Virus record (IMG/VR): IMGVR_UViG_3300032893_000123
Coordinates: 1-41,909 of that record
Length of the DNA stretch: 41,909 bases
Direction: 5' to 3' (one strand)
Origin: a virus
In this document: positions 3,056-39,528 of the stretch, one piece after another
Position numbering within the stretch: position 1 is the first letter of the stretch
How the letters are laid out: each line of letters begins with the position of its first letter
Program-made: the position numbers and the translations under genes
The notes under the pieces: generated by a model
What the model was told of the DNA's origin: nothing
The model's input: only the letters and a program-made list of their open reading frames with translations
Databases searched by the model: none

Positions 3056-3468
3056 CCCTCCGCATCTCCTTCAGCGTCCCCGGTGAGCCGCGCGGTAAGG
3101 GACGCCCACGATTTGCCAAGGGCCGGGCCTACACCGATGCGGCGACGGCGTCCTATGAGAACCTGATCGCCATCAACGCTAAGGCCGCGATGGCGGGCCG
3201 TGAGCCCCTAGCGACGCCGGTGGACGTTTGGGTGCGGATCAACATGCAACCGCCCTCCAGCGCCTCCAAAAGCCGCATAGCGTTGATGCTGTCGGGTGAT
3301 CTGCGTCCGATCAAACGCCCAGATATCGAGAACGTCGCCAAGGCCGTGCTGGACGCGATGAACCAGATCGTGTTCCGCGACGACGCTCAGGTCTGCGGAC
3401 TGCGGGTCGCCAAGTTCTACGACTCACAGCCGGGACTGACGATCGACGTAGAGGAGGTGCTGCCGTGA
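3052..3468 (+). CDS. rusA: RusA-family Holliday junction resolvase
   Basis: 138 aa, the normal length for the family. The N-terminus has the PGEPRGKGRPRF basic motif. The core has the RPDIENVAKAVLDAMN signature with D91 and D101, followed by FRDDAQV (D110/D111) and a lysine at 121, matching the acidic metal-binding site of RusA enzymes. It cleaves four-way junctions during phage recombination or before packaging. It lies in the early operon with a J-domain protein and a PD-(D/E)XK nuclease. Confidence 0.9.
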   Translation: MTLRISFSVPGEPRGKGRPRFAKGRAYTDAATASYENLIAINAKAAMAGREPLATPVDVWVRINMQPPSSASKSRIALMLSGDLRPIKRPDIENVAKAVLDAMNQIVFRDDAQVCGLRVAKFYDSQPGLTIDVEEVLP

Positions 3469-4043
3469 GCGACGCTCCGAATGCCTTTCCGCTCTCCTGG
3501 CCAGTTGGCCGCCCGCGCACGCCCTGGAGCCAACGCGCCAAAGGGTCGTTCTCTGGAACACGCTCCACGATCATGGATCGACTGGAAGCGCAGGTCCGGT
3601 TGCTCGGCGGCAGGTGGCTGGTTGTCTCGTCCGACCTTCCGCTTCGCCGCGACGGACAGCCCCACAGGGGTGCGGCAGAACCGGCCGATCCGGGCGTTTG
3701 CGTCTATTTCGAGATGAAGGGCAAGCCGTATGCGATGGCTTGCGACCGCTACGACTCCCTTGCCCAAAACATCGCGGCCATCGCCAACCATATAGACGCG
3801 ACGCGTCGGATAGAGCGCTATGGAGTCGCGACCGCCGCCGAATCCCTTCAAGCGTTTGAGGCCCTTCCGGCGCCTAAGCGCCCCCACGAAATCCTAGGCG
3901 TGCCGCCTAATGCGACGCCAGAGCAAATCCGAGCGGCATGGAAGGCCAAAATGGTCACGGCGCACCCGGATAAGTCAGGATCGCACGAGGCCGCCGCCGA
4001 ACTGAACGCGGCGCGCGATGCCCTGTTGGCGAGTGTAGTATGA
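3465..4043 (+). CDS. J-domain (DnaJ-like) phage protein
   Basis: 192 aa with a GTG start overlapping the RusA stop (GTGA). The C-terminal 50 residues form a J domain: HEILGVPPNATPEQIRAAWK, then the invariant HPDK at about residues 169-172, then a Glu/Ala helix. The N-terminal 135 residues are an uncharacterised domain often found fused this way in phages. J domains recruit and stimulate Hsp70 (DnaK). Here it would likely help remodel host or phage replication complexes (inference from its position among DNA-metabolism genes). Confidence 0.8.
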   Translation: MSDAPNAFPLSWPVGRPRTPWSQRAKGSFSGTRSTIMDRLEAQVRLLGGRWLVVSSDLPLRRDGQPHRGAAEPADPGVCVYFEMKGKPYAMACDRYDSLAQNIAAIANHIDATRRIERYGVATAAESLQAFEALPAPKRPHEILGVPPNATPEQIRAAWKAKMVTAHPDKSGSHEAAAELNAARDALLASVV

Positions 4044-8346: not shown

Positions 8347-8466
8347 TCATTGCGAGCACCCATTAAGAGCGGCGACTATCATCCACGGCATACCGAGGAT
8401 CGTGATCGCGAAGACGATGATGGCCATGAAGCCGGCGAGTTCTATCCAGTCGCGCTTGTTCATCAT
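8347..8466 (-). CDS. Tiny single-TM membrane protein
   Basis: 38-39 aa (MMNKRDWIELAGFMAIIVFA...) with one long hydrophobic span at about residues 10-34. An excellent AAGGAGG lies 7 nt ahead of the start, and the ATG overlaps the stop of the recombinase gene, so it is translationally coupled to it. The short positively charged N-terminus predicts an inner-membrane protein. Function unknown; regulation of the recombinase, exclusion or toxicity are all possible. Confidence 0.6.
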   Translation of the reverse strand: MMNKRDWIELAGFMAIIVFAITILGMPWMIVAALNGCSQ

Positions 8467-9041
8467 TCCGCAGCCTCCTTGCTGACAGTCTGGGCGCCCT
8501 TCAGCACCCGATAGACGCTGGAGCGGTGACACTTCAGCGCCGACGCGATCGCCGCCGGGGTCATCCCGGCAGCGCGCATGCTCACGATGTCCGACGCCAT
8601 CCGTTCGACGGTGGCTGGACGACCTTTGAACTTGCCGAGAGCCTTCGCCCGGACGATCCCGGCGCGCTGACGCTCCAGCATCATCTCCCGCTCCCAGGCG
8701 GCGACAGCTCCCAGGACGCTCAAGGTGAGGCGTCCAGTGGCCGACGCCGTGTCGAGGTTGAGCGAGAGCACCTTCAGACCGACGCCGCGGCCCCTCAGAT
8801 CCTCGTCAAGCCGCAACAGACCGACGACGGAGCGCTCGAGCCTGTCCGGCTTGGTAACGACCAGCGTATCGCCCTCGCGCAGCCACTTCAGGCAAGCCAT
8901 GAGCTGCGGGCGTTCTTCCGCCAGCGCCGAGACGTGCTCGGAGTAGCAGCGTTCCACGCCCGCGCGCTTCAGCTCGGCGAGTTGGTCCTCAAGGCCAGCG
9001 ACCTGGTCGGGCGTGCTGGTCCTGCAGTAGCCGACTAGCAT
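8463..9041 (-). CDS. Serine recombinase (resolvase/invertase family)
   Basis: 192 aa from the ATG at 9041, with GAGG 5 nt upstream. The N-terminal catalytic domain has GYCRTSTPDQ with the catalytic serine at about residue 8, then RLERSVVGLLRLDEDL and the ATGRLTLSVLGAVAAWEREM core with the conserved Arg and Glu of small serine resolvases. A linker (GKFKGRPATV) leads to a C-terminal HTH (MTPAAIASALKCHRSSVYRVL). Length and order are classic for Tn3/gamma-delta-type resolvases and DNA invertases. With no integrase visible, multimer resolution or inversion of a nearby segment is more likely than integration. Confidence 0.88.
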   Translation of the reverse strand: MLVGYCRTSTPDQVAGLEDQLAELKRAGVERCYSEHVSALAEERPQLMACLKWLREGDTLVVTKPDRLERSVVGLLRLDEDLRGRGVGLKVLSLNLDTASATGRLTLSVLGAVAAWEREMMLERQRAGIVRAKALGKFKGRPATVERMASDIVSMRAAGMTPAAIASALKCHRSSVYRVLKGAQTVSKEAAE

Positions 9042-9157
9042 GGCGACCTCGTCGCGCGCGCAGCCGGCGGTCGTTTTGCGCCGAAGGACCCTATTGCGAC
9101 AGTGGTTTGTGAGTTCGGCCGTGGGCGGTTTGCGCCCGACGCGGTTCGTCTTTGCAT
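9035..9157 (-). CDS. Possible leader peptide upstream of the recombinase
   Basis: A 40-codon frame (MQRRTASGANRPRPNSQTTV...) has GGAGG 9 nt ahead of its ATG, and its stop overlaps the recombinase start codon. Composition is basic and low in hydrophobics, so it may be a translated leader coupling expression rather than a functional protein. Confidence 0.25.
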   Translation of the reverse strand: MQRRTASGANRPRPNSQTTVAIGSFGAKRPPAARATRSPC

Positions 9158-9217
9158 GATTGCGACCCTCCTCAGTCAAGTCGCAATAGAGTGGGTATCC
9201 TGTTATGCGACGTCGCA
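9091..9217. promoter_or_regulatory. Repeated TTGCGAC motifs: candidate resolution site or operator
   Basis: CTATTGCGAC (9091-9100) has an exact inverted copy GTCGCAATAG at 9180-9189. A third near-copy, GATTGCGACC, lies at 9158-9167, and a perfect 12-bp palindrome TGCGACGTCGCA lies at 9206-9217. Clustered inverted recombinase-binding sites directly upstream of a serine resolvase gene are the usual layout of res sites, where resolvase also represses itself. Inference from arrangement only. Confidence 0.45.
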
Positions 9218-9574
9218 CAAGTAGAAAGTAACTCATGCGCGACAGATACGGCCCGATCCGACGACGAACTGCGTTCGCTTTAGGGCAGGGCCATGTGCGA
9301 CGCCCCTGGGCCTGGTCCCCACCCTGGCGACCCCTCCTCGAGAGCGTTGTACGGGGCGACTGGGGACGGGGGAGGGTCGAGCAGATTTTTGAAGGCCTCC
9401 CCATTTCTGCGCTCCGGTTTTACGAAATCGGCCCGCGACCGTTGACAGTCGCGCAAACCAGCGCAAACCTTCGCGCGTTCATGGCTCCATGGACACTCCC
9501 TCCCGGAGAGGCGGCTGACGTCCTCAGCGCTGGCCGCCTCTCCTCCACGGCGAGGGGTCTGAGGAGATCGCGGC
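9218..9574. other. Non-coding stretch ahead of the rightward small-gene cluster
   Basis: No convincing gene is seen in about 350 nt. It contains a tandem direct repeat GCGCAAACC (9451-9459 and 9461-9469) overlapping a candidate promoter, and a 7-bp stem AGGCGGC/GCCGCCT around 9510-9541 with a long loop. An open plus-strand frame across it has atypical composition and no ribosome binding site. Confidence 0.4.
9442..9468 (+). promoter_or_regulatory. Candidate rightward promoter
   Basis: TTGACA (9442-9447), 15 nt, then GCAAAC (9463-9468). The -35 is perfect and the spacing equals that of the other promoter-like sites here. The -10 only partly matches GCTANA. It would drive the cluster starting at 9575. 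Confidence 0.35.
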
Positions 9575-9823
9575 ATGGCTGACGTGGTGGTGACGGCGGA
9601 TGCGGTGAAGAAGCCGGCGGGCCCGGCGGTGACGCCGACGATCAAGGGGGCGCGGAACGAGACCTACGACAACACCGATCCGCATACGGGGACGCTGACG
9701 GCGGAAGCGCTGGCGCGGCGTGCGGAGATCCGGCGGCAGGTGGTGGAGGCTGGCAAGGCGGGCCTGGCGTCCTCTTGGCAAGCCGTGCTGACGGCGTGGA
9801 ATGCGATGAAGGGGATCAAGTGA
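9575..9823 (+). CDS. Hypothetical protein at head of the small-gene cluster
   Basis: 82 aa. GGAG lies 8 nt ahead of the ATG. The N-terminus is Ala/Val/Pro-rich and disordered; the C-terminal half is an amphipathic helix (LARRAEIRRQVVEAGKAG, then SSWQAVLTAWNAM). It overlaps the following mini-ORF. No family recognised. Confidence 0.5.
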   Translation: MADVVVTADAVKKPAGPAVTPTIKGARNETYDNTDPHTGTLTAEALARRAEIRRQVVEAGKAGLASSWQAVLTAWNAMKGIK

Positions 9824-9927
9824 TGTGGGCGGGATTCCTGCTCACCTTCATCCTTGGCGTGGACGTCGGCCTAATCCTTGCGCTGGCAGCGACCTTCGTC
9901 GGCAAGCATTTGGGTTATCGGGAATGA
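9823..9927 (+). CDS. Tiny single-TM protein
   Basis: 34 aa (MWAGFLLTFILGVDVGLILA...), almost entirely hydrophobic and ending KHLGYRE. Its ATG overlaps the previous stop, and its own stop overlaps the start of the holin-like gene, so it is coupled on both sides. It may be a lysis-cassette membrane component. Confidence 0.5.
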   Translation: MWAGFLLTFILGVDVGLILALAATFVGKHLGYRE

Positions 9928-10154
9928 ACCCCACCCCCCAACCCCCTGCCCCGGTGATGCGGTTCGCGGCGTCGGTGCTGCGGCATTTCCTGACGCTGGG
10001 GGCTGGAGCGCTGGTGGGCGCCGGAGCGTTGCCGGGTCAGGATGTCCCGCAGTTCGTGACGGTGGGGTTGGCGATCGCGCTGTGGGCTGTGGCGATGGTG
10101 TGGTCGTGGGTGGAGAAGGGGGCCGGCAAGGCGCCGGTGAAGATCGGGCAATGA
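9924..10154 (+). CDS. Holin-like protein (Pam3-gp28-like)
   Basis: 76 aa. After a Pro-rich start (MNPTPQPPAPVMRF) come RHFLTLGAGALVGAGAL (about residues 20-36) and VGLAIALWAVAMVWSWVEK (about 48-66). This two-segment pattern, with R-x-x-LT-x-GG/AG first and VW-SW-x-EK last, resembles the Pam3-gp28 holin family. It would form inner-membrane holes for lysis. A tiny TM protein lies just upstream and a lipoprotein about 700 nt downstream. Confidence 0.55.
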   Translation: MNPTPQPPAPVMRFAASVLRHFLTLGAGALVGAGALPGQDVPQFVTVGLAIALWAVAMVWSWVEKGAGKAPVKIGQ

Positions 10155-10327
10155 AGGCGCCAATCCAGATGTGGGAAGTCGAGCCGGGTCGCTGGATCGT
10201 CGGCTACTGGTCGTCGGTCTTGTGGAGCTGGACAGGCCGCATGTTCAACAAGGTCACGCAGCGCGAATTCTCGACCGAGAAGGACGCGCTCGACTACATG
10301 GCCTGCAGTGTGAGGATGGTCGCATGA
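10151..10327 (+). CDS. Small hypothetical protein
   Basis: 58 aa, coupled to the holin-like gene by an ATGA overlap. It is Trp-rich (MKAPIQMWEVEPGRWIVGYW then SVLWSWTG) and looks like a small beta-strand domain ending in a helix (TEKDALDYMACS). No family recognised. Confidence 0.5.
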   Translation: MKAPIQMWEVEPGRWIVGYWSSVLWSWTGRMFNKVTQREFSTEKDALDYMACSVRMVA

Positions 10328-10494
10328 AGAAGCCGATGAAGCGCGGCGGCCCGAACCGTCCGAAGCAGGTGATGGGCGGCAAGAAGAAGCCGTATTCGGT
10401 GAGCCGGATGGACGACGAGGGGATGCCGGCGAAGTCGGCGAACCAGGTCGGCAAGGCGGGTGTGAAGTCGAAGAAGCGCCGGGCGGGGATGTGA
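10324..10494 (+). CDS. Small, very basic protein
   Basis: 56 aa with many Lys/Arg and Gly residues (MKKPMKRGGPNRPKQVMGGK and a KSKKRRAGM end). Probably nucleic-acid binding or unstructured. Overlaps both neighbours. Function unknown. Confidence 0.45.
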   Translation: MKKPMKRGGPNRPKQVMGGKKKPYSVSRMDDEGMPAKSANQVGKAGVKSKKRRAGM

Positions 10495-10694
10495 TGCTCC
10501 ACACGGCGACCACCTTTCGGACCGATGATGGCAAGGTGACGGTGTCGGCGCTGATCCGGGGCGACGGGGTCGATCTGGTGACGCAGCGCCCAGGACATCG
10601 GGCCACGACGGTGCAGCTGACGGTCGAGCAGGCGCTGTTGGTGGCGGAGGCTCTGGTCAAGGCGTCGGCCGAATCCGAGGTCTTGGTTCTGTAA
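10494..10694 (+). CDS. Small hypothetical protein
   Basis: 66 aa ([20 protein letters not shown]...). Alternating beta-type segments are followed by a C-terminal helix ([19 protein letters not shown]). It overlaps the preceding and following genes by one to a few bases. No family recognised. Confidence 0.5.
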
Positions 10695-10846
10695 TGCCGT
10701 CTGTCTCCCGCGCGCAGCAGAAGGCGATGCACGCCGCGGCGCGGGGCAAGTCGACGCTCGGGATACCCAAGAAGGTCGGCAAGGAGTTCTCGGCCGCCGA
10801 CCACAAGCGCGGCAAGAAGAAGCTGCCGAAGAGGAAGTCGAAATGA
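10694..10846 (+). CDS. Small basic protein, DUF3008-like
   Basis: 50 aa. [20 protein letters not shown], then [16 protein letters not shown] and a KLPKRKSK tail match the pattern of a widespread small phage/bacterial protein (SKAQQ-x-x-M-x-A-A ... GIP-x-x-V-x-x-E-F-x-x-AD ... LP-x-R). Role unknown; the charge suggests nucleic-acid or virion association. Confidence 0.6.
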
Positions 10847-11097
10847 GGCGCCTGCTGATCGCGTTGGCGCTGCTGCCGCTGGGGGCGTGTCTGTCCACGA
10901 CCGGCACCACCAACTTCGATCACATGATGACGACGCTGGTGAAGAACAATCGCTGCCAGGTGAAGGCGTCGTTCGGCGCCCAGGCCGGGGTGATGAACGC
11001 GGCGTCGGGCGCCAATCTGAACGGTTCAATCGATTGTGAGCCCGCGCCGGAAGCGCCGACGAGCAATTCTGTTGCAGCGCAACCGCCGCCGCAGTAA
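10843..11097 (+). CDS. Small lipoprotein
   Basis: 84 aa. [16 protein letters not shown] is a textbook lipoprotein signal (basic n-region, hydrophobic core, LGAC lipobox with Cys16). The mature part is Asn/Ser/Ala-rich and ends in a Pro/Gln tail. An outer-membrane lipoprotein near a holin-like gene could be a spanin component, but no partner i-spanin was recognised. Alternatively it is a superinfection-exclusion lipoprotein. Confidence 0.65.
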
Positions 11098-11141
11098 TCG
11101 GCCCCTCGAGTTCCTGCCACCTTCAGCCTTGAGCGGCGCCC

Positions 11142-12527
11142 ATGCCGGAGACCTCCTTTGCGCCCGTCATCGGGTTCTGCACCACGTGCGGGAACCGGCG
11201 GGCGCATCTGGAGGCGACGCTGGGCTGGAACCTGTTCCACAACCAACACTATCCGAGGCTGAAGCACGTGGTGCTGGACTACGGCTCGACGGACGGGCTG
11301 GGACGGTGGATCGAGCGAAACTATCCGCGCGAGCTGAAGTCGGGGCGGCTGGTCTATTGGCGCCATGAGGCGCCGCACTTCCGCATGGCCCACGCCAAGA
11401 ACATGGTCCACCGGCTGGCGATCGAGGAGGGCTGCGAGATCCTGGTCAGCCTGGACGCCGACAACCTGACCGGGCCGGGGTTCGCGGCTTACGTGGCGCA
11501 GCGCTTCGAGCAGGCCGAGGACGACCGAGAAGCGATCTTCCTCAGGGCGAGGGAGAACCATTGCGGACCAGGGCCGGGAGCGTGGTCGCGGATGCCGGGG
11601 GGCTGCGGTGGCCGGATCGTGGTGACCGCCAGCGCCTTCCTCTGCGCCGGCGGCTACGACGAGCAGTTCGAGCACTGGAGCCCGGACGACAAGGACTTCG
11701 CCCATCGCCTGGAGGTGCTGGGGTTCGCCCGGCATGGCATCCCGAAACGACACCTGGAGGCGATCCCGCATGGCGACGACGTGCGCTTCGCCAACTACGC
11801 CGGGGGGCCGTCGACGTCGAAGGGCATGGGTCCGCAGTTCCGGCTGCAGGGCCGCGAGAAGGTCTCGGTGGTCAACCGCGGCCGGTTCGGGATGGGCCCG
11901 GTCACCGACCGCGCCGGGGCAACGCGGCAGTTAGGCCCCGTCCCCACTCGCATCTTCGGCATCGGCATGCACAAGACGGCGACGACCTCGCTGGCGTCGG
12001 CGCTGCGCAAGCTGGGTTACGCGACCGGGCACTGGGAGTCGCCGATCTGGGCTCGCAACATCGTCAACGAACTCAGGGCCTGGAAGCGCTCGCTGACCCT
12101 GGAGGCCAACTACGCGGTGGTCGACTTTCCGATGGCCTATCTCTTCCGCGAACTCGACGCGTGCTACAAGGGGGCGAAGTTCATCCTGACCTTGCGGGAC
12201 GAGGCGTCGTGGCTGAAAAGCGCCGAGATCCACTGGAAGCTCTACTACGACGAATGGGCCGACAACGGCTTCTCGCACGAGATGCACCGGCTGATGTACG
12301 GCCGCGACGACTTCGACGCGCACACCATGCTGGAGCGCTATTGCCGCCACAACGCCGAGGTGCTGGACCACTTCAAGGACCGGCCGCAGGACCTGCTGGT
12401 GATGGACATGAGCGCTGGGGCCGGATGGTCGGAGCTTTGCGCATTCCTGGGGCGACCGATCCCTGATATGCCCTACCCGGTGGAGTTCACGTCGAAGGAG
12501 CGGATGGTGACGGAGAGCTATCCATGA
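11142..12527 (+). CDS. Glycosyltransferase (GT2) - sulfotransferase fusion
   Basis: 461 aa. Residues about 9-215 form a GT-A domain: GFCTTCGNRRAHLE, LDYGSTDG, the DxD-like SLDADN at 103-108, and GGYDEQFEHWSPDDKDFAHR (170-189), a galactosyltransferase-like acceptor and catalytic segment. After a short basic linker, about residues 259-460 form a Sulfotransfer_4-like domain: FGIGMHKTATTSL (262-274) as the 5'-PSB loop for PAPS, FILTLRDEASWLKS (347-360) as the 3'-phosphate segment, and ELCAFLGRPIPDMPYP near the end. It would add and sulfate a sugar. The target (virion, host glycan or DNA) is unknown. It lies between the lysis-like cluster and the terminase. Confidence 0.8.
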   Translation: MPETSFAPVIGFCTTCGNRRAHLEATLGWNLFHNQHYPRLKHVVLDYGSTDGLGRWIERNYPRELKSGRLVYWRHEAPHFRMAHAKNMVHRLAIEEGCEILVSLDADNLTGPGFAAYVAQRFEQAEDDREAIFLRARENHCGPGPGAWSRMPGGCGGRIVVTASAFLCAGGYDEQFEHWSPDDKDFAHRLEVLGFARHGIPKRHLEAIPHGDDVRFANYAGGPSTSKGMGPQFRLQGREKVSVVNRGRFGMGPVTDRAGATRQLGPVPTRIFGIGMHKTATTSLASALRKLGYATGHWESPIWARNIVNELRAWKRSLTLEANYAVVDFPMAYLFRELDACYKGAKFILTLRDEASWLKSAEIHWKLYYDEWADNGFSHEMHRLMYGRDDFDAHTMLERYCRHNAEVLDHFKDRPQDLLVMDMSAGAGWSELCAFLGRPIPDMPYPVEFTSKERMVTESYP

Positions 12528-13105
12528 TCGCGGCGCTCTATGTCGAGACCGGCGGCTGCTACTTCGGTCTGCCCGACGTCGATCCGTGGGACGAGACGCG
12601 TGACGCTCGGCGCTATTTTGGGCCGGATCGGGTGATCGCGCATCCGCCGTGCGCGGCATGGTGTCAGATGGCGCCGGTCAACCAGGCCCGTTACGGCCGA
12701 CCGATCGGCGCAGACGGCGGCTGCTTCGAGGCCGCGCTCTGGTCCGTGAGGCTGTTTGGCGGCGTGCTTGAGCACCCGGCCGTCTCGATCGCGTGGCGCT
12801 ACTTCGGTCTTCCGCGCCCGCCGCGCGAGGGATGGTCTGTTGCGGACGTCTACGGTGGTGCTGCCGCACAGGTCGAGCAGGGAAACTATGGCCACGCTGC
12901 GCGGAAAAAGACCTGGCTCTACGCGGTCGGCGTACCGCTGCCGGAACTGAAGTGGGGCGCCGGGCCGAAACCGACCGGCTGGATCAGCGCTGATCGCCCG
13001 CGCGCCGAGTTGGCGGCGATGGGCTTTCGGCAAATCCAGAAACCGGAAGCGAGGCGGACGCCGCTGGCATTTCGCGATATCCTGATCGAGATGGTGAGCC
13101 AATGA
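12524..13105 (+). CDS. Cytosine-methyltransferase-like phage protein
   Basis: 193 aa, overlapping the fusion gene by 4 nt. Recognisable family segments: ALYVETGGCYFGLPDVDPWD at the N-terminus, then a HPPCAAW motif (40-46) reminiscent of the PC active-site loop of C5-cytosine methyltransferases, GGVLEHPAVS (79-88) and GNYGHAARKKTWLY (120-133). Similar proteins recur in actinobacterial and proteobacterial phages, usually annotated as methyltransferase-like or hypothetical. A full SAM-binding motif is not obvious, so catalytic activity is uncertain. Confidence 0.5.
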   Translation: MIAALYVETGGCYFGLPDVDPWDETRDARRYFGPDRVIAHPPCAAWCQMAPVNQARYGRPIGADGGCFEAALWSVRLFGGVLEHPAVSIAWRYFGLPRPPREGWSVADVYGGAAAQVEQGNYGHAARKKTWLYAVGVPLPELKWGAGPKPTGWISADRPRAELAAMGFRQIQKPEARRTPLAFRDILIEMVSQ

Positions 13106-13344
13106 TCGAGGTCTTCATCCCGCCGGCGTCGAGCCACATGCAGAAGGCCGAGTGGGACGACATCAGCGAGGAACTGCTGGTGGTCTGGCAGGACGGGTCG
13201 GCCTACTCGGTGCAGAACGTGCCGCGCGCGCAGTACCGGCGGATGACGATGGAACTGTCGCCCGGCGCCTACTTCCACCGCCAGTTCGGACGGGTGGCGC
13301 AGCAGGCGCCTTACGATTCCCTGGACCAGGCCGCGAGTGGCTGA
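13102..13344 (+). CDS. KTSC-domain protein
   Basis: 80 aa. The pattern PPASSHMQKAEWDD, LLVVWQDGSAYSVQNVPRAQ and a SPGAYFHRQFG end matches the KTSC domain, a small beta fold common in phages (SS-x-I ... YD ... L-x-V-x-F-x-G ... Y-x-Y-x-x-VP ... S-x-G-x-YF). It overlaps the terminase start. Role unknown; often found near packaging or nucleic-acid genes. Confidence 0.7.
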   Translation: MIEVFIPPASSHMQKAEWDDISEELLVVWQDGSAYSVQNVPRAQYRRMTMELSPGAYFHRQFGRVAQQAPYDSLDQAASG

Positions 13345-15388
13345 CGACCGCGCCACCCTCTTCGCCGAGCTCTACGCCGACCGGGTTCTTGCGCACGGCT
13401 TCCTGTTCTCCCACCGGCATTGGGACGCCGAGCCCGACTACAAGGCGGCGCTGATCGGCGACTTCCACTCCACCGAGAAGCATCGGCTGGAGATGGTGTT
13501 CCGCGGCGGCGGCAAGTCGACCACCGCCGAGGAGGCCATCGCGCTGGGGGCGGAGTTCCAGGACTTCCGCTACTGCCTGATCATCGGCAACACCATCGAC
13601 CGGGCCTGTCAGCGCCTGCACTCGATCCGCCACGAGTTCGAGACCAACGAGCGCCTGAACCTGGTGTTCGGCGATCCGATCGGCCCGATCTGGAGCGCCG
13701 ATCAACTCCTGCTTTCCAACGGGGTGATGATCCAGGCGCTGGGTCGCGGCCAGTCGCTGCGCGGCGCCAAGCACCTCGATCAGCGGCCGGACATGCTGTT
13801 TGGCGACGACCTGGAGGAGTACCCGGACGTCGCCACCGACAAGGCTCGCCAGGAGACCTTTCGATGGTTCACCCAGGACGTGCTGCCGGCCCTGGACCCG
13901 CACTATCGGGCGCGCATCGCCGCGACGCCGCTGCATCCCGAGGCGCTGCCGCCACGGCTGCAGGCGTCCGGGTGGGAGACGCGGCTGGTGCCGATCTGCC
14001 ACCCGGGCCCGGACGGCAAGATGGTCTCGTCCTGGCCGGCCCGGTTTCCGATGACCGAGGAGGACGCCAAGGCGCTGGGCGGGCGCCGGGCGGTGGGCTC
14101 GGAGGTGATGGACCGGGGCTGGGTCCGGCCCAACTCCATCGACGCCATGCAGGACGCGGCCCAGCGCGCCGGGATGATGCGGCAGTTCCGGGCCGAGTAC
14201 CTGTGCGAGCCAACCTCCGAGGAGTCGCAGACCTTCACCAAGGTGATGATCGAGGCGGCGAGGGCCAACCGGGCGCCGTCTTGGGAAGCCAAGTACGTGA
14301 TGATCGACCCGGCGCGGACGGTGCGTTCGACCTCGGCGCTGACCGGCGCCGCGGCCTGGTCGTGGATCGGCGGCACGCTCTGGGTCTGGGACGCCTGGCA
14401 GAAGGCGCTGATGCCGGACCAGATCATCGACGCCTGCTTCCGGATGAACGAGGAACTGCAGCCGGTGTTCCTCGGCGTCGAGGAGGACGGGCTGAACGAA
14501 TGGATCTTGCAGGCCATCCGCCAGGAGCAGGTGCGGCGGGGGGTGACGCTGCCGATCGTCCCGATGCGGGCGCCGAAGGGCAAGTTCGACTTCATCCGCT
14601 CGCTGCAGATCTGGTTCCACGCGCGCGAACTGAAGTTCGCCAAGGAGTTGCCGGAACTGGAGACGGCGCTGCTGGCCTTCCCGAGCGGCAAGATCGATGC
14701 GCCAAACGCGCTGGCCTACGCCATCCCGATGCGAGGCGGCGCTTCGATCTACGGCGAGTTCGACGGCCGCCACGTCGCCCCCGACCTCGAGCCGGCTCGG
14801 AACCGGCGGGTGCACTTGGCGCTGAATGCGACTCGGACGCTGACGGCGGCGATGCTGGTCCAGTACCTCGAAGGCGCGGTCAGGGTGTTCGCCGACTGGA
14901 TCGTGGAGGGCGAGCCCAGTGAGGCGGTGCCGCATATCCTGCGCTCGGCCAGGCTCGAAGCTGGTCAGGCGGTGAAGTGCGTCGCGCCGCCGTCCGAGTT
15001 CGAGCGCTATAGCGCGATGGGCGTGGTGCAGATCGCCGCCAAGTCGTTCCAGGAGGTGGACAAAGGCGGCGCGCCGGAGAAGGGCCGTCCGATGGTCCGC
15101 GACCTGCTGCAGCGTCAGGTTCGCGGCGCCCCGGCGCTGATGGTCTGCGACCGCGCGCACTGGACCCTGAACGGCTTCGCCGGCGGCTACCGGTATCTGC
15201 CCAACAAGCAGGGCCTCCTGATGCAGACCGCCGAGGAGGGCCGCTACAAGGTGCTGATGGAGGCGCTGGAGGCGTTCATGGCGCTGACCGAAGCCCGTTT
15301 GCCGCAGGAGCAGTCCGAGGATACAAACATGGCCTTCACGCCGGGCGGTGTGCCTTACGCTTCCGCCCTGCCGCAGCGGAGGCGGTGA
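13337..15388 (+). CDS. terL: Terminase large subunit
   Basis: 683 aa with a GTG start. The ATPase domain has FRGGGKSTT (Walker A, 55-63), MLFGDDLEE (Walker B, about 153-161) and an IAATPLHP coupling segment. The nuclease domain has MIDPARTVRSTS with D324, LGVEEDGLNEWI with central acidic residues, and IDAPNALAYAIP with D454 as third metal ligand. It packages DNA into proheads through the portal encoded directly downstream. About 200 extra residues follow the nuclease core, ending GGYRYLPNKQG then MEALEAFMAL. The long C-terminus is somewhat unusual and may bind the portal. Confidence 0.88.
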   Translation: MADDRATLFAELYADRVLAHGFLFSHRHWDAEPDYKAALIGDFHSTEKHRLEMVFRGGGKSTTAEEAIALGAEFQDFRYCLIIGNTIDRACQRLHSIRHEFETNERLNLVFGDPIGPIWSADQLLLSNGVMIQALGRGQSLRGAKHLDQRPDMLFGDDLEEYPDVATDKARQETFRWFTQDVLPALDPHYRARIAATPLHPEALPPRLQASGWETRLVPICHPGPDGKMVSSWPARFPMTEEDAKALGGRRAVGSEVMDRGWVRPNSIDAMQDAAQRAGMMRQFRAEYLCEPTSEESQTFTKVMIEAARANRAPSWEAKYVMIDPARTVRSTSALTGAAAWSWIGGTLWVWDAWQKALMPDQIIDACFRMNEELQPVFLGVEEDGLNEWILQAIRQEQVRRGVTLPIVPMRAPKGKFDFIRSLQIWFHARELKFAKELPELETALLAFPSGKIDAPNALAYAIPMRGGASIYGEFDGRHVAPDLEPARNRRVHLALNATRTLTAAMLVQYLEGAVRVFADWIVEGEPSEAVPHILRSARLEAGQAVKCVAPPSEFERYSAMGVVQIAAKSFQEVDKGGAPEKGRPMVRDLLQRQVRGAPALMVCDRAHWTLNGFAGGYRYLPNKQGLLMQTAEEGRYKVLMEALEAFMALTEARLPQEQSEDTNMAFTPGGVPYASALPQRRR

Positions 15389-18591: not shown

Positions 18592-19935
18592 ATGGCCGTC
18601 AACAATGCCGCCACCTTCAATGCCGACATCGTCGGCTTCATCCAGGACGAACTGCTCGACCTGCCCCAAAAGGAGCTCGTCGCCTACCAGTTCGGGGAAA
18701 AGCTGACGCTGCCGGAAGGCCGCGGCACCACCTACACCGCCACCCGGTTCCTGCGCGTCTCGACGCCGTTCGCACCCCTCTCCGAAGGCGTCCCCCCGGT
18801 CGGCGAGGAGATGTCGATCCAGCAGGTGTCGGTGGTCGCGCTCCAGTGGGGCGACAAGATCACCATCACCGACGTCGCCGAACTCACCATCTTCCACCCG
18901 GTGTTCAAGGAGGCGGTCAACCTTCTCGGCCTGCAGGTGAAGGAGACCGTCGAGCGGATCACCTTCAACGCCCTCCTGGCCGGCACCCAGGTCAACTACG
19001 TCAACCAGCGCGGATCCCGCGCGGCCCTCGTCGCCGGCGACGTGCTCGACACCACCACGGTGATCCGCACCTCGGCGCAGCTGATGAACATCGGCGCCCG
19101 CCGCTACCTTGGCGACGAGAACACCGACATCATGCTCGACGCGGAGAAGGGCGGCGCCAACGCCTCCTCGAATCCGCGCGTGCAACCCCACTATGCGGCG
19201 ATCATCCACCCCTTCGTCTCCGCCGACTTCCGGCAGAACGCCACGGTGGTCAACGCCTGGTCCTATTCGGACGTCAACCGCCTCTACAACTTCGAGGCCG
19301 GCGAGTGGTCCGGCATCCGCTTCTGCGAGTCGAACATGGTCCCCTCGTGGACCGGCGTCGCGCAGGTCAACGGCACGCCCGGCACGGCCGGCAACCTCGA
19401 CACCAACACCTACTACATCCAGGTGACGGCGCAGGACACGCTGCTGCAGTACGAGAGCCGGATCTATCAGGTTTCGACCTCGAACTCCGTCACCGGCCCC
19501 AACGGCTCGATCAGCGTCACGCTGCCGAACATCTCGGGCTTCACCTTCAACGTCTACATCGGCACCACGACCAGCCCGACCAATCTCGGCCTGTCGGCGT
19601 CCGGCCCGACCTCCGGCCCGCTGACCGGGCAGGCGACGCAGCTCGCGCCGAACACCACCGTGGTGATCACCGGCGTCGGCATCGCCCAGACGCCGCCTGC
19701 CGCGCCGGCGACCGGGCTGACAGTCTATCCGACGTTCGTGATCGGGCGCGGGGCTTACGCCCAAGTAATCCTCCAGGACATCGCGACGACTTACTTGGAC
19801 AAGGCCGATAAATCAGATCCTTTGAACCAACTCCGAGTCACGGGGTACAGCCTCTTCTTCGGCGTACTTTTGGTCCAAAATCTATACTTGGCGAGGATCG
19901 AGTCGGTTTCTGGATTTACTTCGTCCTTCGGCTAG
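18592..19935 (+). CDS. Major capsid protein, N4-gp56-like, with Ig-like insertion
   Basis: 447 aa. The HK97-type N4-gp56 pattern is visible: LDLPQKELVAYQFGEKLTLP, then GTTYTATRFLRV, SEGVPPVGEE, LQWGDKITITDVAEL and QVKETVERITFNALLAG. Near the end TVYPTFVIGRGAYAQV and SDPLNQLRVTGYSLFFG match the family's last strands. Between about residues 255 and 375 an extra Thr/Gly/Asn-rich beta domain (NTYYIQVTAQD, ISGFTFNVYIGTTTSP) looks Ig/FN3-like. The last ~60 codons are abruptly AT-rich compared with the rest, and the 3' end overlaps a convergent endonuclease gene by 54 nt. Confidence 0.85.
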   Translation: MAVNNAATFNADIVGFIQDELLDLPQKELVAYQFGEKLTLPEGRGTTYTATRFLRVSTPFAPLSEGVPPVGEEMSIQQVSVVALQWGDKITITDVAELTIFHPVFKEAVNLLGLQVKETVERITFNALLAGTQVNYVNQRGSRAALVAGDVLDTTTVIRTSAQLMNIGARRYLGDENTDIMLDAEKGGANASSNPRVQPHYAAIIHPFVSADFRQNATVVNAWSYSDVNRLYNFEAGEWSGIRFCESNMVPSWTGVAQVNGTPGTAGNLDTNTYYIQVTAQDTLLQYESRIYQVSTSNSVTGPNGSISVTLPNISGFTFNVYIGTTTSPTNLGLSASGPTSGPLTGQATQLAPNTTVVITGVGIAQTPPAAPATGLTVYPTFVIGRGAYAQVILQDIATTYLDKADKSDPLNQLRVTGYSLFFGVLLVQNLYLARIESVSGFTSSFG

Positions 19936-20568
19936 GTTGCTTAATTGCTCGGACTTCTCAAGGTAGCGCACGGCCTCGGCCAGCGCTGCCTTGGAGTCCT
20001 TGAACCGACCGAACCCCATGTTGCAACTCGTGCAAAGCAGTCCGCGGACCACGCCCGTCTTGTGGCAGTGGTCGATGTGAAAGCGCTTCGTGATCCCGCC
20101 GGGGCTGTTCGAGCCGCAGATGGCGCAGAGCCCGTTCTGGTCAGCGAGCATCTTGGCATAGGTCCCGCGCGGAAGGCCGTAGCTCCAGCGCGCGTTGTTG
20201 TCGGCCACTTTGTCGGGATGCCGCTCGCGGTAGCGCTTGGCGCCGTTCCGGTGCGACGTTGGGTCTTTGCGCCGGCTGGCCGTCACTCTCACGACGCAGC
20301 AGGCTTTGCAGTGGTTCTGCTTGCCGTCGTAGGACGAGCGGTTGGTTCCAAACTCTTCCAGCGGCTTGATCGACTCGCAGCCAGGGCACCACTTCGTGCC
20401 CTCCGGAGGCTTCCAACGCGGGTGCGGGCTGTAGCGATCCTTGGCATCGGTGATCTGACACGAGCGGCAGTAGCTCGACAGGCCGTCGTTTCGGTGGACG
20501 CTTTTGTAGAAGCCAGAGGCCGGTTTGACTTCCCGGCACTTCGGGCAGAATTTCTCTCTAACAGCCAT
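19882..20568 (-). CDS. Endonuclease VII-like homing endonuclease
   Basis: 228 aa from the ATG at 20568, with AAGGAGG 5 nt ahead. Two N-terminal zinc ribbons (CPKCREVKPASGFY ... YCRSC, and WCPGCESIKPLEEF ... CKACC) precede a recombination endonuclease VII domain: ADQNGLCAICGSNSPGG, FHIDHCHKTGVVRGLLC and CNMGFGRFKDS, giving the catalytic H-D-H and structural Cys4 of T4 gp49-type nucleases. It lies antisense between capsid and decoration genes and overlaps the capsid 3' end by 54 nt. Position and domains fit a free-standing mobile endonuclease rather than a packaging resolvase. Confidence 0.85.
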   Translation of the reverse strand: MAVREKFCPKCREVKPASGFYKSVHRNDGLSSYCRSCQITDAKDRYSPHPRWKPPEGTKWCPGCESIKPLEEFGTNRSSYDGKQNHCKACCVVRVTASRRKDPTSHRNGAKRYRERHPDKVADNNARWSYGLPRGTYAKMLADQNGLCAICGSNSPGGITKRFHIDHCHKTGVVRGLLCTSCNMGFGRFKDSKAALAEAVRYLEKSEQLSNLAEGRSKSRNRLDPRQV

Positions 20569-20613
20569 GACATCCTCCTTCTCCAAGGCGGATGATAGAA
20601 GGACAAAATTGTC

Positions 20614-20922
20614 ATGTCTACCACGACTGGCGGCACGAACGCCACCGACTCGCTCAGCCCCGTCCTGACCTTCCTGCCGGGGTTCGACTCCGGCATGGCG
20701 GCGGCGGACGTGGCGACGATGCAGGAGGCGATCCTGGACGATCTCAACGTCGCCCACCCGATGGTGGGCGGCGACTCGTTCAGCTACAACGGCTGGCTCT
20801 ATGTCCCCAACCGCGGCCGGCTGCAGATGCTGCCGGGCGATGTGGTGATGATCGACTCGACGGGCTGGCCGATCCTGGTGTCGGCCAACGCCATCGCCTA
20901 CGGACCCTGGACAGTCGGTTAG
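20614..20922 (+). CDS. Putative head decoration or small virion protein
   Basis: 102 aa following the capsid locus. The N-terminus is Thr/Ser-rich and flexible; the C-terminal half is a compact beta domain (SFSYNGWLYVPNRGRLQMLP, then GDVVMIDSTGWPILVSA). Small beta-rich proteins directly after the capsid gene are often decoration or head-completion proteins. No exact family recognised. The endonuclease on the other strand separates it from the capsid gene. Confidence 0.5.
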   Translation: MSTTTGGTNATDSLSPVLTFLPGFDSGMAAADVATMQEAILDDLNVAHPMVGGDSFSYNGWLYVPNRGRLQMLPGDVVMIDSTGWPILVSANAIAYGPWTVG

Positions 20923-20934
20923 GGGTCGCCTAGC
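20908..20934 (+). promoter_or_regulatory. Candidate promoter
   Basis: TGGACA (20908-20913), exactly 15 nt, then CCTAGC (20929-20934), matching the spacing and -10 of other sites (29698, 30930, 38761). It overlaps the end of the upstream small gene and would serve the genes from 21033. Confidence 0.4.
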
Positions 20935-21032
20935 TTCCCGGCGGGCCCGTAAGCTCCGTCCATCGCTGGCCACTTCTGGCGAAGGGCGCCGGGGCGCAAT
21001 CCCCCGGGGGCCTGCCGAATTCAGGAGCTACG

Positions 21033-31913: not shown

Positions 31914-32282
31914 GTGTGGACCTACAAAATCGCCCTGGGCCAGATGATCGGACCCCAGGGCGAAGTTTTTCCGGGCTACTCCGGCGCGGGCTACACGGAA
32001 GCGGACGGCCGCAACAATCCCGAGATGGTCGCCGATCCCGACAAGGGTCCGATCCCGCCCGGCTGCTACACGATCATGCCGCCGGAGAACGACCCCCGCA
32101 CCGGCCCGTACTCGATGCACCTGGAGCCGACGCTGACCACCAACACCTTCGGTCGTTCGGCCTTCCTGATCCACGGCAACAACGCCGCCAACGATGCGAG
32201 CCACGGCTGCATCATTCTCCCGCCAGATGCGCGGCATGACATCTGGGCGAGCGGAGACCACGATCTCACCGTGATGCCGTGA
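31914..32282 (+). CDS. L,D-transpeptidase-fold (YkuD/DUF2778-like) enzyme, candidate lysin
   Basis: 122 aa, GTG start. The catalytic motif of L,D-transpeptidases is present: IHG at 86-88, then S96-H97-G98-C99 (DASHGCIIL). The fold length and N-terminus (TYKIALGQMIGPQGEVFPGY) fit the short DUF2778/Tlde1-type. Such enzymes act on peptidoglycan peptides as transpeptidase or L,D-carboxypeptidase. No other endolysin was recognised outside the virion, so this is the best lysis-enzyme candidate. It has no signal peptide and would need a holin. Confidence 0.7.
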   Translation: MWTYKIALGQMIGPQGEVFPGYSGAGYTEADGRNNPEMVADPDKGPIPPGCYTIMPPENDPRTGPYSMHLEPTLTTNTFGRSAFLIHGNNAANDASHGCIILPPDARHDIWASGDHDLTVMP

Positions 32283-32758
32283 ACCTCCGCGTCCTCGGAT
32301 ACCTCGACACGATCGTCATCCTCTCGAACCTGCGCCTGCGTCATTGGGAACACCTGGAAGGCGACGGCGACATCCGCACGCTGGTGCTGCGCGACGAAGA
32401 CGGGGACATGCCGATCCTCGCCAAATGGGCGTCGGCGCGCTCGTTCCTGCAGCGCCTGCGCAACGAAGCCGCGCCGTTCCTGAACGGCCTGCCGGCGGAG
32501 CTCGGACGGGCCTGGATCGAGTCGCTGCTGCCGGGACGGTCGACACCCTGGCGCTCGGAGGATCAAAGCGACTGGCTGACGCTTCGCGTGTGTCTCGCCA
32601 CGCCGCCCGGCGGCTGGCTCTACTGCAATGGCGAGGCGATGGTGCTGCAGCCCGGCATCGTGGCTTACGTCAACGTGCAGGCCCCGACGTCGAGCCTGAA
32701 TCTCGGCCCGTCGCCCAGGCTGCATCTGTGCTGCGAGGTGAGGAGGCCGGATCTGTGA
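32279..32758 (+). CDS. Possible degenerate beta-hydroxylase/cupin-like protein
   Basis: 159 aa, overlapping the previous stop. The C-terminal half (SDWLTLRVCLATPPGGWLYC, then NGEAMVLQPGIVAYVNVQAP and LNLGPSPRLHLCCEV) is patterned like the aspartyl/asparaginyl beta-hydroxylase fold, with PG-x-x-x-x-VN and N-x-G-x-x-x-R-x-HL. The expected iron-binding HxD and the His before the N-x-G motif are not evident, so activity may be lost. Low-confidence fold suggestion. Confidence 0.35.
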   Translation: MNLRVLGYLDTIVILSNLRLRHWEHLEGDGDIRTLVLRDEDGDMPILAKWASARSFLQRLRNEAAPFLNGLPAELGRAWIESLLPGRSTPWRSEDQSDWLTLRVCLATPPGGWLYCNGEAMVLQPGIVAYVNVQAPTSSLNLGPSPRLHLCCEVRRPDL

Positions 32759-38600: not shown

Positions 38601-38755
38601 CGAACCTGTCGGCCGTCGAGCGTCTGGCCGGCGTGCGTCCGGCGCCCGGCTACATCCAGAACCCGGATCGCCGCAAGGCGCTGAACGACTACTACGACAT
38701 GCAGGCGCACATCCGTAAGCGCCGGGCCGACCAGCGCTCGGACGCGCAATACTAA
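35657..38755 (+). CDS. Large internal virion protein with M15 peptidase domain
   Basis: 1032 aa. The N-terminal about 110 residues carry a Peptidase_M15-like domain: TSGLRTPEHN (42-51), SLHLRGMAEDF with H62 and D69, and GDHIHY with H103, forming the zinc-binding H-x6-D...H site of D,D-peptidases that cut peptidoglycan. The rest is long and helical, with hydrophobic and Ala/Gly-rich stretches (GAYVAALGAVTMMQNGIATY-type near residue 870), as in ejection proteins that cross both membranes. It would digest cell-wall peptides during DNA entry. It ends the internal-protein block. Confidence 0.75.
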   Translation: MPTADDILGLAKPRGKPSADQLLGTVSPDKAVLQAVPGARLTSGLRTPEHNREVGGVADSLHLRGMAEDFVPPAGMTRQQAIDRIRARDPHPRELLDEGDHIHYAPGQFGPAPSANDLLGIASSPLQGAKGDKVAGGRVTGQTMRDFVGRSTTPEGPTGRGAPYVMRPLKPGEKAPDRVQGAPEELQPFSPGKPGAPTLGEVGEHAARRAHEALQDLRARSTNHLGFAAYSLPNLLADASDAYSVAVSPFSGAAEAGSAHLPTGLSPTVLQQHPELAAQRQAEYARDPAARDRSAGDVAEMFAPVGEVASAGRGVARLGKAAVEGFEAGRSGIKVGERLFSPATVSDNARAAAALHRSALGHYGVMSDVESYRLAHEAKALRNLSPEQEREFIDYVERRSEEGVKAPESPAVQKAADAIRTVATRYRDAIEKVLGKSDEGGPGFVRDYFAHLWKQSPDEVADAFAGRGKQGSGANLKARSIPTYAEGLARGLTPRYPNPIDAMTAYNESMGRFLATNKIRQDMMEGGLAKWFKPGEAPEGWRPLNGMLTKGPHGQALYAPEDAARIYNNHISKGLEGGDAGPVYRGARAVANGLVQLKLGLSAFHLAVVGQEGIVSEVARGLGQLSRGKPEGFATIAKAPAAPVLSGLRGAKLRRSILGEAGIDGFTLPSEADRKLNKLYEEAGGSLRMSRIYSTRGAGSFFSSLERGTLVKDVKASLSRIFGDNPSGLDRAKGVADMAGNLIQSAAAPIFEHYVPAIKRGAWAKGMETFLKENPSASAEEQAAFGRRLLDSIDNRFGELMLDNNFWHKAGFQIAQLLLLSPSWDVGTIREIGGGVLNVPKSVKGLMTGKGIDEKTAYVAALGAVTMMQNGIATYLHTGQAPSGADWFAYRTGGKNPDGSPERAMIPSYMKDVLSMIYEGPGQMALNKTNPGLRSAVELATDKDYRGLPISSRLPGEKGRADYLAGQLTPISVDTLRSKKGSNLSAVERLAGVRPAPGYIQNPDRRKALNDYYDMQAHIRKRRADQRSDAQY

Positions 38756-38760
38756 TGACA

Positions 38761-38794
38761 TTGACCTCCGATCTTTTTCGATCTAAAAAGATCG
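38761..38794 (+). promoter_or_regulatory. Promoter-like site overlapping an AT-rich hairpin
   Basis: TTGACC (38761-38766), exactly 15 nt, then TCTAAA (38782-38787) form a promoter-like pair. The region also makes a perfect 10-bp hairpin CGATCTTTTT/AAAAAGATCG (38769-38778 and 38785-38794) with a 6-nt loop. It could act as a terminator for the 35657 gene or as an operator. It starts 5 nt after the internal-protein stop. Confidence 0.45.
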
Positions 38795-38821
38795 ACGGGG
38801 CCGGAGGAGGGCTCCGTCATT

Positions 38822-38992
38822 ATGGAAACGATCACCAATTGGACGGCCAAGCGAGCTGGTGGCCGGATTACGATCTACGGTGTCAAGTCGGACGGCCGAC
38901 CGCTCCGTGTCGTCGGCGTCGACAAGATCGAGGCCGGCTCACCCCACCCCGTCGCCACCGACAAGGACGGCACGCAGTACCTACTGGCTTAG
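38822..38992 (+). CDS. Small hypothetical protein
   Basis: 56 aa (METITNWTAKRAGGRITIYG...). GGAGGAGG lies about 11 nt ahead. Predicted small beta domain (RITIYGVKSDGRPLRVVGVD) ending in DKDGTQYLLA. No family recognised. It separates the promoter-hairpin from the endonuclease gene. Confidence 0.55.
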   Translation: METITNWTAKRAGGRITIYGVKSDGRPLRVVGVDKIEAGSPHPVATDKDGTQYLLA

Positions 38993-39006
38993 GGGCGAGC
39001 GCGGTC

Positions 39007-39528
39007 ATGGTCGAAAACTGGAGGCCTATCGCCGGCTACGAGGGCGCCTATGAGATTTCTGATCATGGCCGCGTTCGTTCTCTTGAACGGCGCGTTCCTA
39101 GTAAGCCAGGACTCACACGCCCAATCCGAGAGCGCATGCTGAAGCAGGCGCTGGACAACGGCTATCCCACGGTTTGTCTCGGCCGAAAGAACAAGAAGTT
39201 CGTTCACGTGTTGGTGCTAGAGACCTTCATTGGTCCTGCCCCCGCTGGCATGGAGGCGTGTCACTGGGACGACGACCGCGCTAACAACAAGTTGCCAAAC
39301 CTTCGTTGGGGCGCGCACAAACAAAATGCGGCCGACGCCGTTCGGAACGGTCGGATGCCTCGCGGCGAGGCCCACCCTAACTCTCGGTTGACAGAAGACT
39401 TCATTCGGCAAGTGCGCAATCAGCATTACGAGGGCTGTTCTGTGCGATCGTTGGCGAAGTTCTATGGGCTCAGTCGGGGCTATCTGTGGTCGGTTGTTGC
39501 TCGCAAGTTTTGGGCTCATGTCGCATGA
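39007..39528 (+). CDS. NUMOD4-HNH homing endonuclease
   Basis: 173 aa from the ATG at 39007. Domains in order: NUMOD4 (WRPIAGYEGAYEISDHGRVR, then SLERR), an HNH-type core (VHVLVLETFIGPAPAGMEAC, HWDDDRANNKLPNLRW, GAHKQNAADA), and a C-terminal HTH-like DNA-binding region (RLTEDFIRQVRNQHYEG, SVRSLAKFYGLSRGYLW). This is a textbook free-standing homing endonuclease. It overlaps the start of the ATP-grasp gene by 4 nt, and that gene's 5' end is AT-rich. Confidence 0.88.
   Translation: MVENWRPIAGYEGAYEISDHGRVRSLERRVPSKPGLTRPIRERMLKQALDNGYPTVCLGRKNKKFVHVLVLETFIGPAPAGMEACHWDDDRANNKLPNLRWGAHKQNAADAVRNGRMPRGEAHPNSRLTEDFIRQVRNQHYEGCSVRSLAKFYGLSRGYLWSVVARKFWAHVA

Follow-up and report, generated by a model that had tools for sequence, protein, structure and literature searches.

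The window analysed here is a 41,909-nucleotide stretch of viral DNA, positions 1 to 41,909 of IMG/VR record IMGVR_UViG_3300032893_000123. It carries a gene that joins a glycosyltransferase domain to a sulfotransferase domain (Table 1), and the ATG of this gene is the sole start codon of its open frame. The overlapping virus record IMGVR_UViG_3300032897_000282 encodes the identical 461 residues (100% identity), and a search for close relatives of the window phage via its terminase returned the overlapping record only. The stop codon of the fusion and the ATG of the next gene, phrog_12600, overlap as ATGA (12524-12527), which suggests that the two genes are co-translated but is not in itself a sign of a functional link. 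A scan of positions 9400-13400 for promoters and terminators found none. Because the gene for the terminase large subunit lies downstream, the fusion stands beside the packaging and head genes.

Table 1. Coordinates of the fusion gene, its domains and motifs, and the adjoining genes.
Feature	Residues	Position	Strand	Basis or remark
Small lipoprotein-like gene, directly upstream		10843..11097	+	L070 likewise has a homologue close to its fusion
Fusion gene P0001, glycosyltransferase and PAPS-type sulfotransferase		11142..12527	+	single uninterrupted 461-aa ORF
GT-A glycosyltransferase domain	1-262	11142..11927	+	structural matches, profile scores
DADN (DxD) motif	105-108	11454..11465	+	invariant in 56/56
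GGYDE...PDDKDF motif (acceptor/base)	170-186	11649..11699	+	G170, G171, Y172, E174 and D183 invariant in 56/56
Sulfotransfer_4 domain	268-450	11943..12491	+	PF17784, Cpz8 structural match
5'-phosphosulfate-binding loop GIGMHKTATTSL	273-284	11958..11993	+	conservation in 56 proteins
D328, candidate acceptor-hydroxyl binding/activating residue	328	12123..12125	+	invariant in 56/56; aligns with S. mansoni SULT Asp91
3'-phosphate-binding motif RDEASWLKS	352-360	12195..12221	+	conservation in 56 proteins
Downstream gene phrog_12600, function unknown		12524..13105	+	start overlaps fusion stop (ATGA)
Terminase large subunit		13337..15388	+	phrog_38, 6.9e-43; downstream of the fusion

Several other genes of the window were recorded. 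A serine resolvase gene (8463-9404, minus strand) lies between the replication and late genes on the strand opposite to its neighbours; plasmid genes of Methylobacterium/Methylorubrum, Roseomonas and Pandoraea match its product at about 48-52% identity, too weak a similarity for host assignment. Endonuclease VII-type and NUMOD4-HNH endonucleases are encoded among the structural genes (19882-20970, minus; 38755-39528, plus). HNH endonucleases are also common beside the fusion in other phages, where they may help it to spread. The early region encodes a C-terminal DnaJ domain (3465-4043, plus; 33.1 bits, cut-off 27.8). A small protein encoded at 31914-32282 (plus) contains a Tlde1/L,D-transpeptidase domain of the kind seen in type VI effectors (52.3 bits, cut-off 30.1), and the gene at 32279-32758 (plus) gives an aspartyl/asparaginyl beta-hydroxylase match below threshold (14.7 bits, cut-off 22.6). 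At 39486-40859 (plus) the window encodes an ATP-grasp protein similar to phosphoribosylglycinamide synthetase, with 37.3 bits for GARS_A and 93 bits for the purD model, the latter far below its cut-off.

Distribution of the fusion and its neighbouring genes

The same fusion occurs in other phages. Clustering of IMG/VR proteins at 95% identity gave 69 distinct fusion proteins, with relatives about 40-58% identical to the window protein, on contigs of 4 to 265 kb. Conservation counts and the alignment used for modelling are based on 56 fusion proteins, in which the window protein shares 40-57% identity with the rest, and neighbour-gene counts on 47 or 50 fusion-bearing records. Among the best 80 virus matches to the sulfotransferase half alone, 74 belong to a frame that also contains the glycosyltransferase half; the remaining six comprise two cut at contig ends, two with split frames and two from very large contigs. 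Because the 69 distinct fusions keep both domains in one frame, and a second record is 100% identical, we can rule out chance and an assembly mis-join of two genes. The original prediction that one 461-residue gene, not two separate genes, joins the domains is thus confirmed by the intact frame, the second record and the single-frame arrangement throughout the family.

Among 84,980 species genomes, the whole fusion was found on just two contigs. One of these (L044) is 99.4% identical to a virus contig, L090, over 9.4 kb, and on the other (L045) a terminase-like gene adjoins the fusion. The two genome bins concerned are titled palsa and SPRUCE. A profile search of 240 alphaproteobacterial genomes returned a few glycosyltransferase-only genes, about two dozen sulfotransferase-only genes and none spanning both halves, while 50,697 annotated phage genomes gave one distant match, to the glycosyltransferase half only. 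The fusion is a virus-restricted family with no convincing cellular copy in the collections searched, a statement that for the species genomes refers to a scan starting from exact peptide patterns. We also considered a cellular gene carried by chance and rejected it, as a recent capture, given that L044 and L045 represent virus contigs and that the 240 alphaproteobacterial genomes have no fusion.

The genes that surround the fusion differ widely across loci and include several terminase families; across the loci compared, no virion protein consistently adjoins it. Of the 50 records, 20 have a member of the family phrog_19005, and in 17 of these it is no more than about 2 kb away from the fusion (for example L117:10090-10917, L072:7144-7920 and L106:10143-11015); the family was not found in the window. 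Its model superposes on the cysteine protease xylellain (3ois; Z 20.5), to which it also has a sequence profile match (3.7e-19), and by this modelled fold phrog_19005 is a papain-fold cysteine-protease-like family. A Cys and a His are invariant in its alignment, with the usual catalytic Asn apparently replaced in most members.

Folds and conserved motifs of the two halves

The C-terminal half had been read from the sequence as a PAPS-dependent sulfotransferase-like domain and the N-terminal half as a GT2-type domain. Of the stretches quoted for that reading, FGIGMHKTATTSL corresponds to the 5' and LRDEASWLKS to the 3' PAPS-binding motif, SLDADN to the DxD and GGYDE...SPDDKDF to the acceptor/base motif. 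When the halves were profiled separately, the sulfotransferase was far over its cut-off: residues 270-448 match PF17784 (Sulfotransfer_4) with 112.7 bits (3e-32, cut-off 22.8) over positions 1-209 of the 215 in the profile. PF17784 exceeds its cut-off in 47 of 47 fusion-bearing records and is confined to the fusion, one match per record, except for one record in which the match is split over two frames. Comparison of the model using VIA-align placed the sulfotransferase half closest to Cpz8 bound to PAP (9kf2; Z 20.6, rmsd 2.9, 185 residues), with SgdX2 (Z 20.3) and schistosome sulfotransferases (Z 18-19) also matching. The sulfotransferase assignment is therefore upheld by a profile match and by a modelled fold that matches a PAP-bound structure.

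Residues expected of a PAPS site are conserved among the 56 proteins. In the 5' loop G275, T281 and L284 are invariant, T279 is kept in 55 of 56 and position 278 is Lys in 53 proteins and Arg in three. The 3' motif retains W357 in all 56 and S360 in 53, and position 352 is Arg in 55 and Lys in one. The S. mansoni Asp91, the counterpart of D328, hydrogen-bonds the hydroxyl that receives the sulfate (PMC4618941).

The glycosyltransferase half of the window protein was borderline in the profile search. Residues 1-262 scored 22.5 bits against Glyco_transf_7C, slightly below the cut-off of 23, and weakly against Glycos_transf_2 (15.5 bits, cut-off 23.3); the closest relative, L070, exceeds both cut-offs (27.2 and 24.3 bits, respectively). 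The AlphaFold2 model of this half matches many GT-A enzymes with Z-scores of 16-19 (VIA-align), in agreement with the predicted GT2-type domain. These include the heparosan synthase PmHS2 (heparosan synthase 2; Z 18.9, 221 residues, rmsd 3.0) and the chondroitin polymerase K4CP (Z 18.2, 208 residues, rmsd 3.3), and further matches are WrtF, RmlT, TarS, TarP and polypeptide GalNAc-transferases. Besides the motif residues in Table 1, H210 is invariant in the aligned fusion proteins. Rhodospirillales/proteobacterial relatives of the glycosyltransferase half at L046:7935-9953 and L047:4878-6875 are fused to an apparent radical-SAM domain (CNLACSMC motif), so that this glycosyltransferase family takes part in a further kind of tailoring fusion.

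The whole-chain AlphaFold2 model, built from the alignment of 56 fusion proteins, has a pLDDT of 90.6 and a pTM of 0.90, which suggests that the relative placement of the two domains is predicted with confidence. At the level of the model, the structural matches are to a GT-A fold and a sulfotransferase fold, and they name neither the sugar nor the acceptor. Judged by residue conservation, both halves look to be under selection for catalysis.

APS kinase genes and the supply of PAPS

Full-length APS kinases were found in six of 50 fusion-bearing records, all within 1.5 kb downstream of the fusion and on the same strand. The APS-kinase-linked homologues include L117 and L086, and two of the six records are near-identical viruses. 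Two weaker APS-kinase matches were left uncounted, an unlinked one of 22 bits and one in L079. The latter (L079/G010) was considered as a seventh APS kinase and rejected, as its kinase is joined to a cytidylyltransferase-like domain (phrog_10255); the gene (L079:9242-10111) directly follows the fusion and matches APS kinase in part. A rough Poisson estimate in which L079 is still counted as the seventh gives 3e-11 for at least seven linked kinases and 1e-7 for at least five. On the tree, again with L079 included, the APS-kinase label changes about five times; because well-supported branches force only two of these changes, the linkage may reflect few events. No APS-kinase-like ORF was seen near the fusion in the window.

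APS kinase makes PAPS; its linkage therefore favours an enzyme that uses PAPS and speaks against a role in sulfate assimilation. PAPS reductase (PF01507) was found in 4 of 47 records and was never adjacent to the fusion; it overlaps the APS-kinase set in G031 only, on the opposite strand and more than 4 kb away. With PAPS reductase so infrequent and unlinked, we rejected assimilatory sulfate reduction as the purpose of the cassette. We also inspected 50 other cysC-bearing virus records (L215-L277). A Sulfotransfer_3 match is present in 17 of them, over the cut-off in 15, and lies within 4 kb of cysC in nine of the 50, a raw count without a matched control. Viral cysC may thus commonly serve sulfation.

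Predicted product, candidate acceptors and related systems

The identity of the fusion as a glycosyltransferase joined to a PAPS-dependent sulfotransferase, which implies a sulfated glycan, is well supported by the profiles, the model, motif conservation, the conserved fusion and, in some phages, APS kinase linkage; from the same evidence we infer catalysis. In the proposed mechanism a soluble, bifunctional enzyme would act inside the infected cell. With a nucleotide sugar as donor, its GT-A domain would glycosylate an acceptor, and its C-terminal domain would transfer a sulfuryl group from PAPS to the same glycan. PAPS would be supplied by the host APS kinase or, in a minority of phages, by a phage APS kinase encoded immediately downstream. 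A phage-made sulfated glycan is the likely product, and the addition of a sugar and then of sulfate onto it is very probably the work of a single two-part enzyme. The order of the two steps, their action on one molecule and the acceptor discussed below we likewise infer.

Our best guess for the acceptor is a phage virion protein. Three points favour it: a membrane segment is not apparent in the enzyme, the gene lies beside the terminase here, and phage glycosyltransferases decorate capsid and tail proteins. According to a passage of PMC12363180 that cites Freeman 2023, mycobacteriophages encode glycosyltransferases that glycosylate their capsid and tail tube proteins. The original prediction had included a collagen fibre among the targets. 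As collagen repeats are present in only 5 of 47 fusion-bearing records (over the cut-off in four), collagen-like fibres are not the general substrate. The reading of the fusion as implying a sulfated glycan stands on the profiles, the model and the motifs, and the other suggestions of that prediction, namely the capsid Ig-like domain as a target, receptor masking against superinfection and protection from host glycan-targeting systems, are possible roles. Taken whole, a soluble bifunctional enzyme that makes a sulfated glycan, with a virion protein as the likeliest acceptor, is the best explanation we can offer, and its chances of being right in every part are about even.

The strongest alternative to a virion acceptor is a precursor of the host's surface glycans. 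The substrate would be a cytoplasmic, lipid-linked precursor from which O-antigen, capsule or teichoic acid is made; by adding a residue to it and sulfating that residue, the enzyme would alter the receptor and so prevent superinfection or the re-adsorption of progeny. The nearest glycosyltransferase folds, which are those of heparosan synthase, chondroitin polymerase, WrtF and the teichoic acid enzymes RmlT, TarS and TarP, are consistent with this, as are the relatives of the glycosyltransferase half that exist as cellular genes in bacteria and the GDP-mannose dehydratase/epimerase or DegT aminotransferase genes near the fusion in some loci. However, fold similarity does not fix the acceptor, and such glycan-synthesis neighbours are found in few loci only. 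Moreover, the secondary structure of the model shows no apparent long hydrophobic helix, and neither a flippase nor a polytopic partner was noticed in the vicinity of the fusion. We consider a surface-glycan acceptor possible but unlikely.

Cpz8 and SgdX2 act on small molecules. So does the schistosome SULT (PMC4618941), and these are the nearest structures to the sulfotransferase half. Together with the recurrence of a non-structural neighbour, the papain-fold protein phrog_19005, they would fit a small-molecule acceptor such as a sugar nucleotide, signalling nucleotide or lipid, from which the enzyme would make a sulfated glycoconjugate that serves host takeover or counter-defence. However, the presence of a sugar-adding domain on the same polypeptide fits a glycan better, and conserved pathway genes are absent apart from APS kinase, making a small-molecule acceptor rather improbable.

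Glycosylation of phage DNA bases is established. A passage of PMC10829341 states in addition that nucleotide modification systems based on glycosyltransferases and sulfotransferases have been reported in phages, and the enzyme could in principle glycosylate and sulfate hypermodified bases of the phage genome. Thymidylate-synthase/hydroxymethylase homologues, however, turned up in only 4 of the 47 records searched and the window has none, and the nearest glycosyltransferase folds are those of polysaccharide and protein glycosyltransferases; we regard DNA modification as very improbable. It is scarcely credible that one domain is a catalytically dead remnant, with sulfation alone or glycosylation alone taking place, for although the glycosyltransferase half of the window protein scores near or below the profile cut-offs, DADN, D183 and H210 are invariant in the 56 proteins and the PAPS-site residues nearly so.

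Searches of open-access full text yielded no description of the fusion, of the APS-kinase cassette or of phage glycans that carry sulfate. Individually, glycosyltransferases of phages, sulfotransferases of viruses (PMC8290583, PMC10829341, PMC12285232) and viral cysC/APS kinases (PMC10914622, PMC9529941) are known; what appears to be new here is the virus-restricted glycosyltransferase-sulfotransferase fusion and the recurrent APS-kinase cassette. We tentatively propose, at somewhat less than an even chance, that many uncultured phages make a sulfated glycan with a virus-specific two-domain enzyme, some with their own PAPS supply, and place it on their virions. If so, these phages would have a sulfated viral coat, undescribed in the open-access phage literature, and part of what is counted as viral "assimilatory sulfate reduction" (cysC) would be sulfation. 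Sulfate confers a strong negative charge on a glycan and could alter adsorption, antibody binding and glycosidase sensitivity. A question of viral ecology also becomes testable, as cysC is counted as assimilatory reduction yet stands beside a PAPS-consuming sulfotransferase without a PAPS reductase.

Each part of the proposed system has known counterparts. The glycosyltransferase domains of K4CP and PmHS2, and the Glyco_transf_7C families, share with the fusion the GT-A fold (Z 18-19) and the DxD, GGYDE and ED/DD..D motifs. K4CP and PmHS2 have two glycosyltransferase active sites and make a polymer, whereas the fusion, 14-17% identical to them, has a single glycosyltransferase domain and a sulfotransferase as its second half, on which grounds we rejected a chondroitin or heparosan synthase. 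Cpz8 (9kf1/9kf2), SgdX2 (8y9p) and the schistosome SULT-OR (4mua, 5tiz) share the sulfotransferase fold at Z 18-21 and about 25-28% identity, together with the 5' and 3' PAPS motifs, the Asp91 equivalent and a C-terminal GW..LC.FL..P.P segment; they are single-domain enzymes, whereas the phage domain sits behind a fused glycosyltransferase.

The mycobacteriophages Che8, Corndog and Myrna encode glycosyltransferases for which decoration of virion proteins has been proposed, as here, but the published account as it treats these enzymes contains no sulfotransferase domain (PMC12363180). The viral cysC genes of PMC10914622 and PMC9529941 are classed under assimilatory sulfate reduction, whereas in the fusion phages cysC accompanies a PAPS-consuming fusion, with PAPS reductase unlinked. 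In the Streptomyces cassette adpST-adpP1P2P3, as in the phage cassette, an APS kinase is encoded beside the sulfotransferase that it feeds, and this PAPS cassette raises di-sulfation; it belongs to a bacterial natural-product cluster, however, and additionally has ATP sulfurylase genes (PMC12135136).
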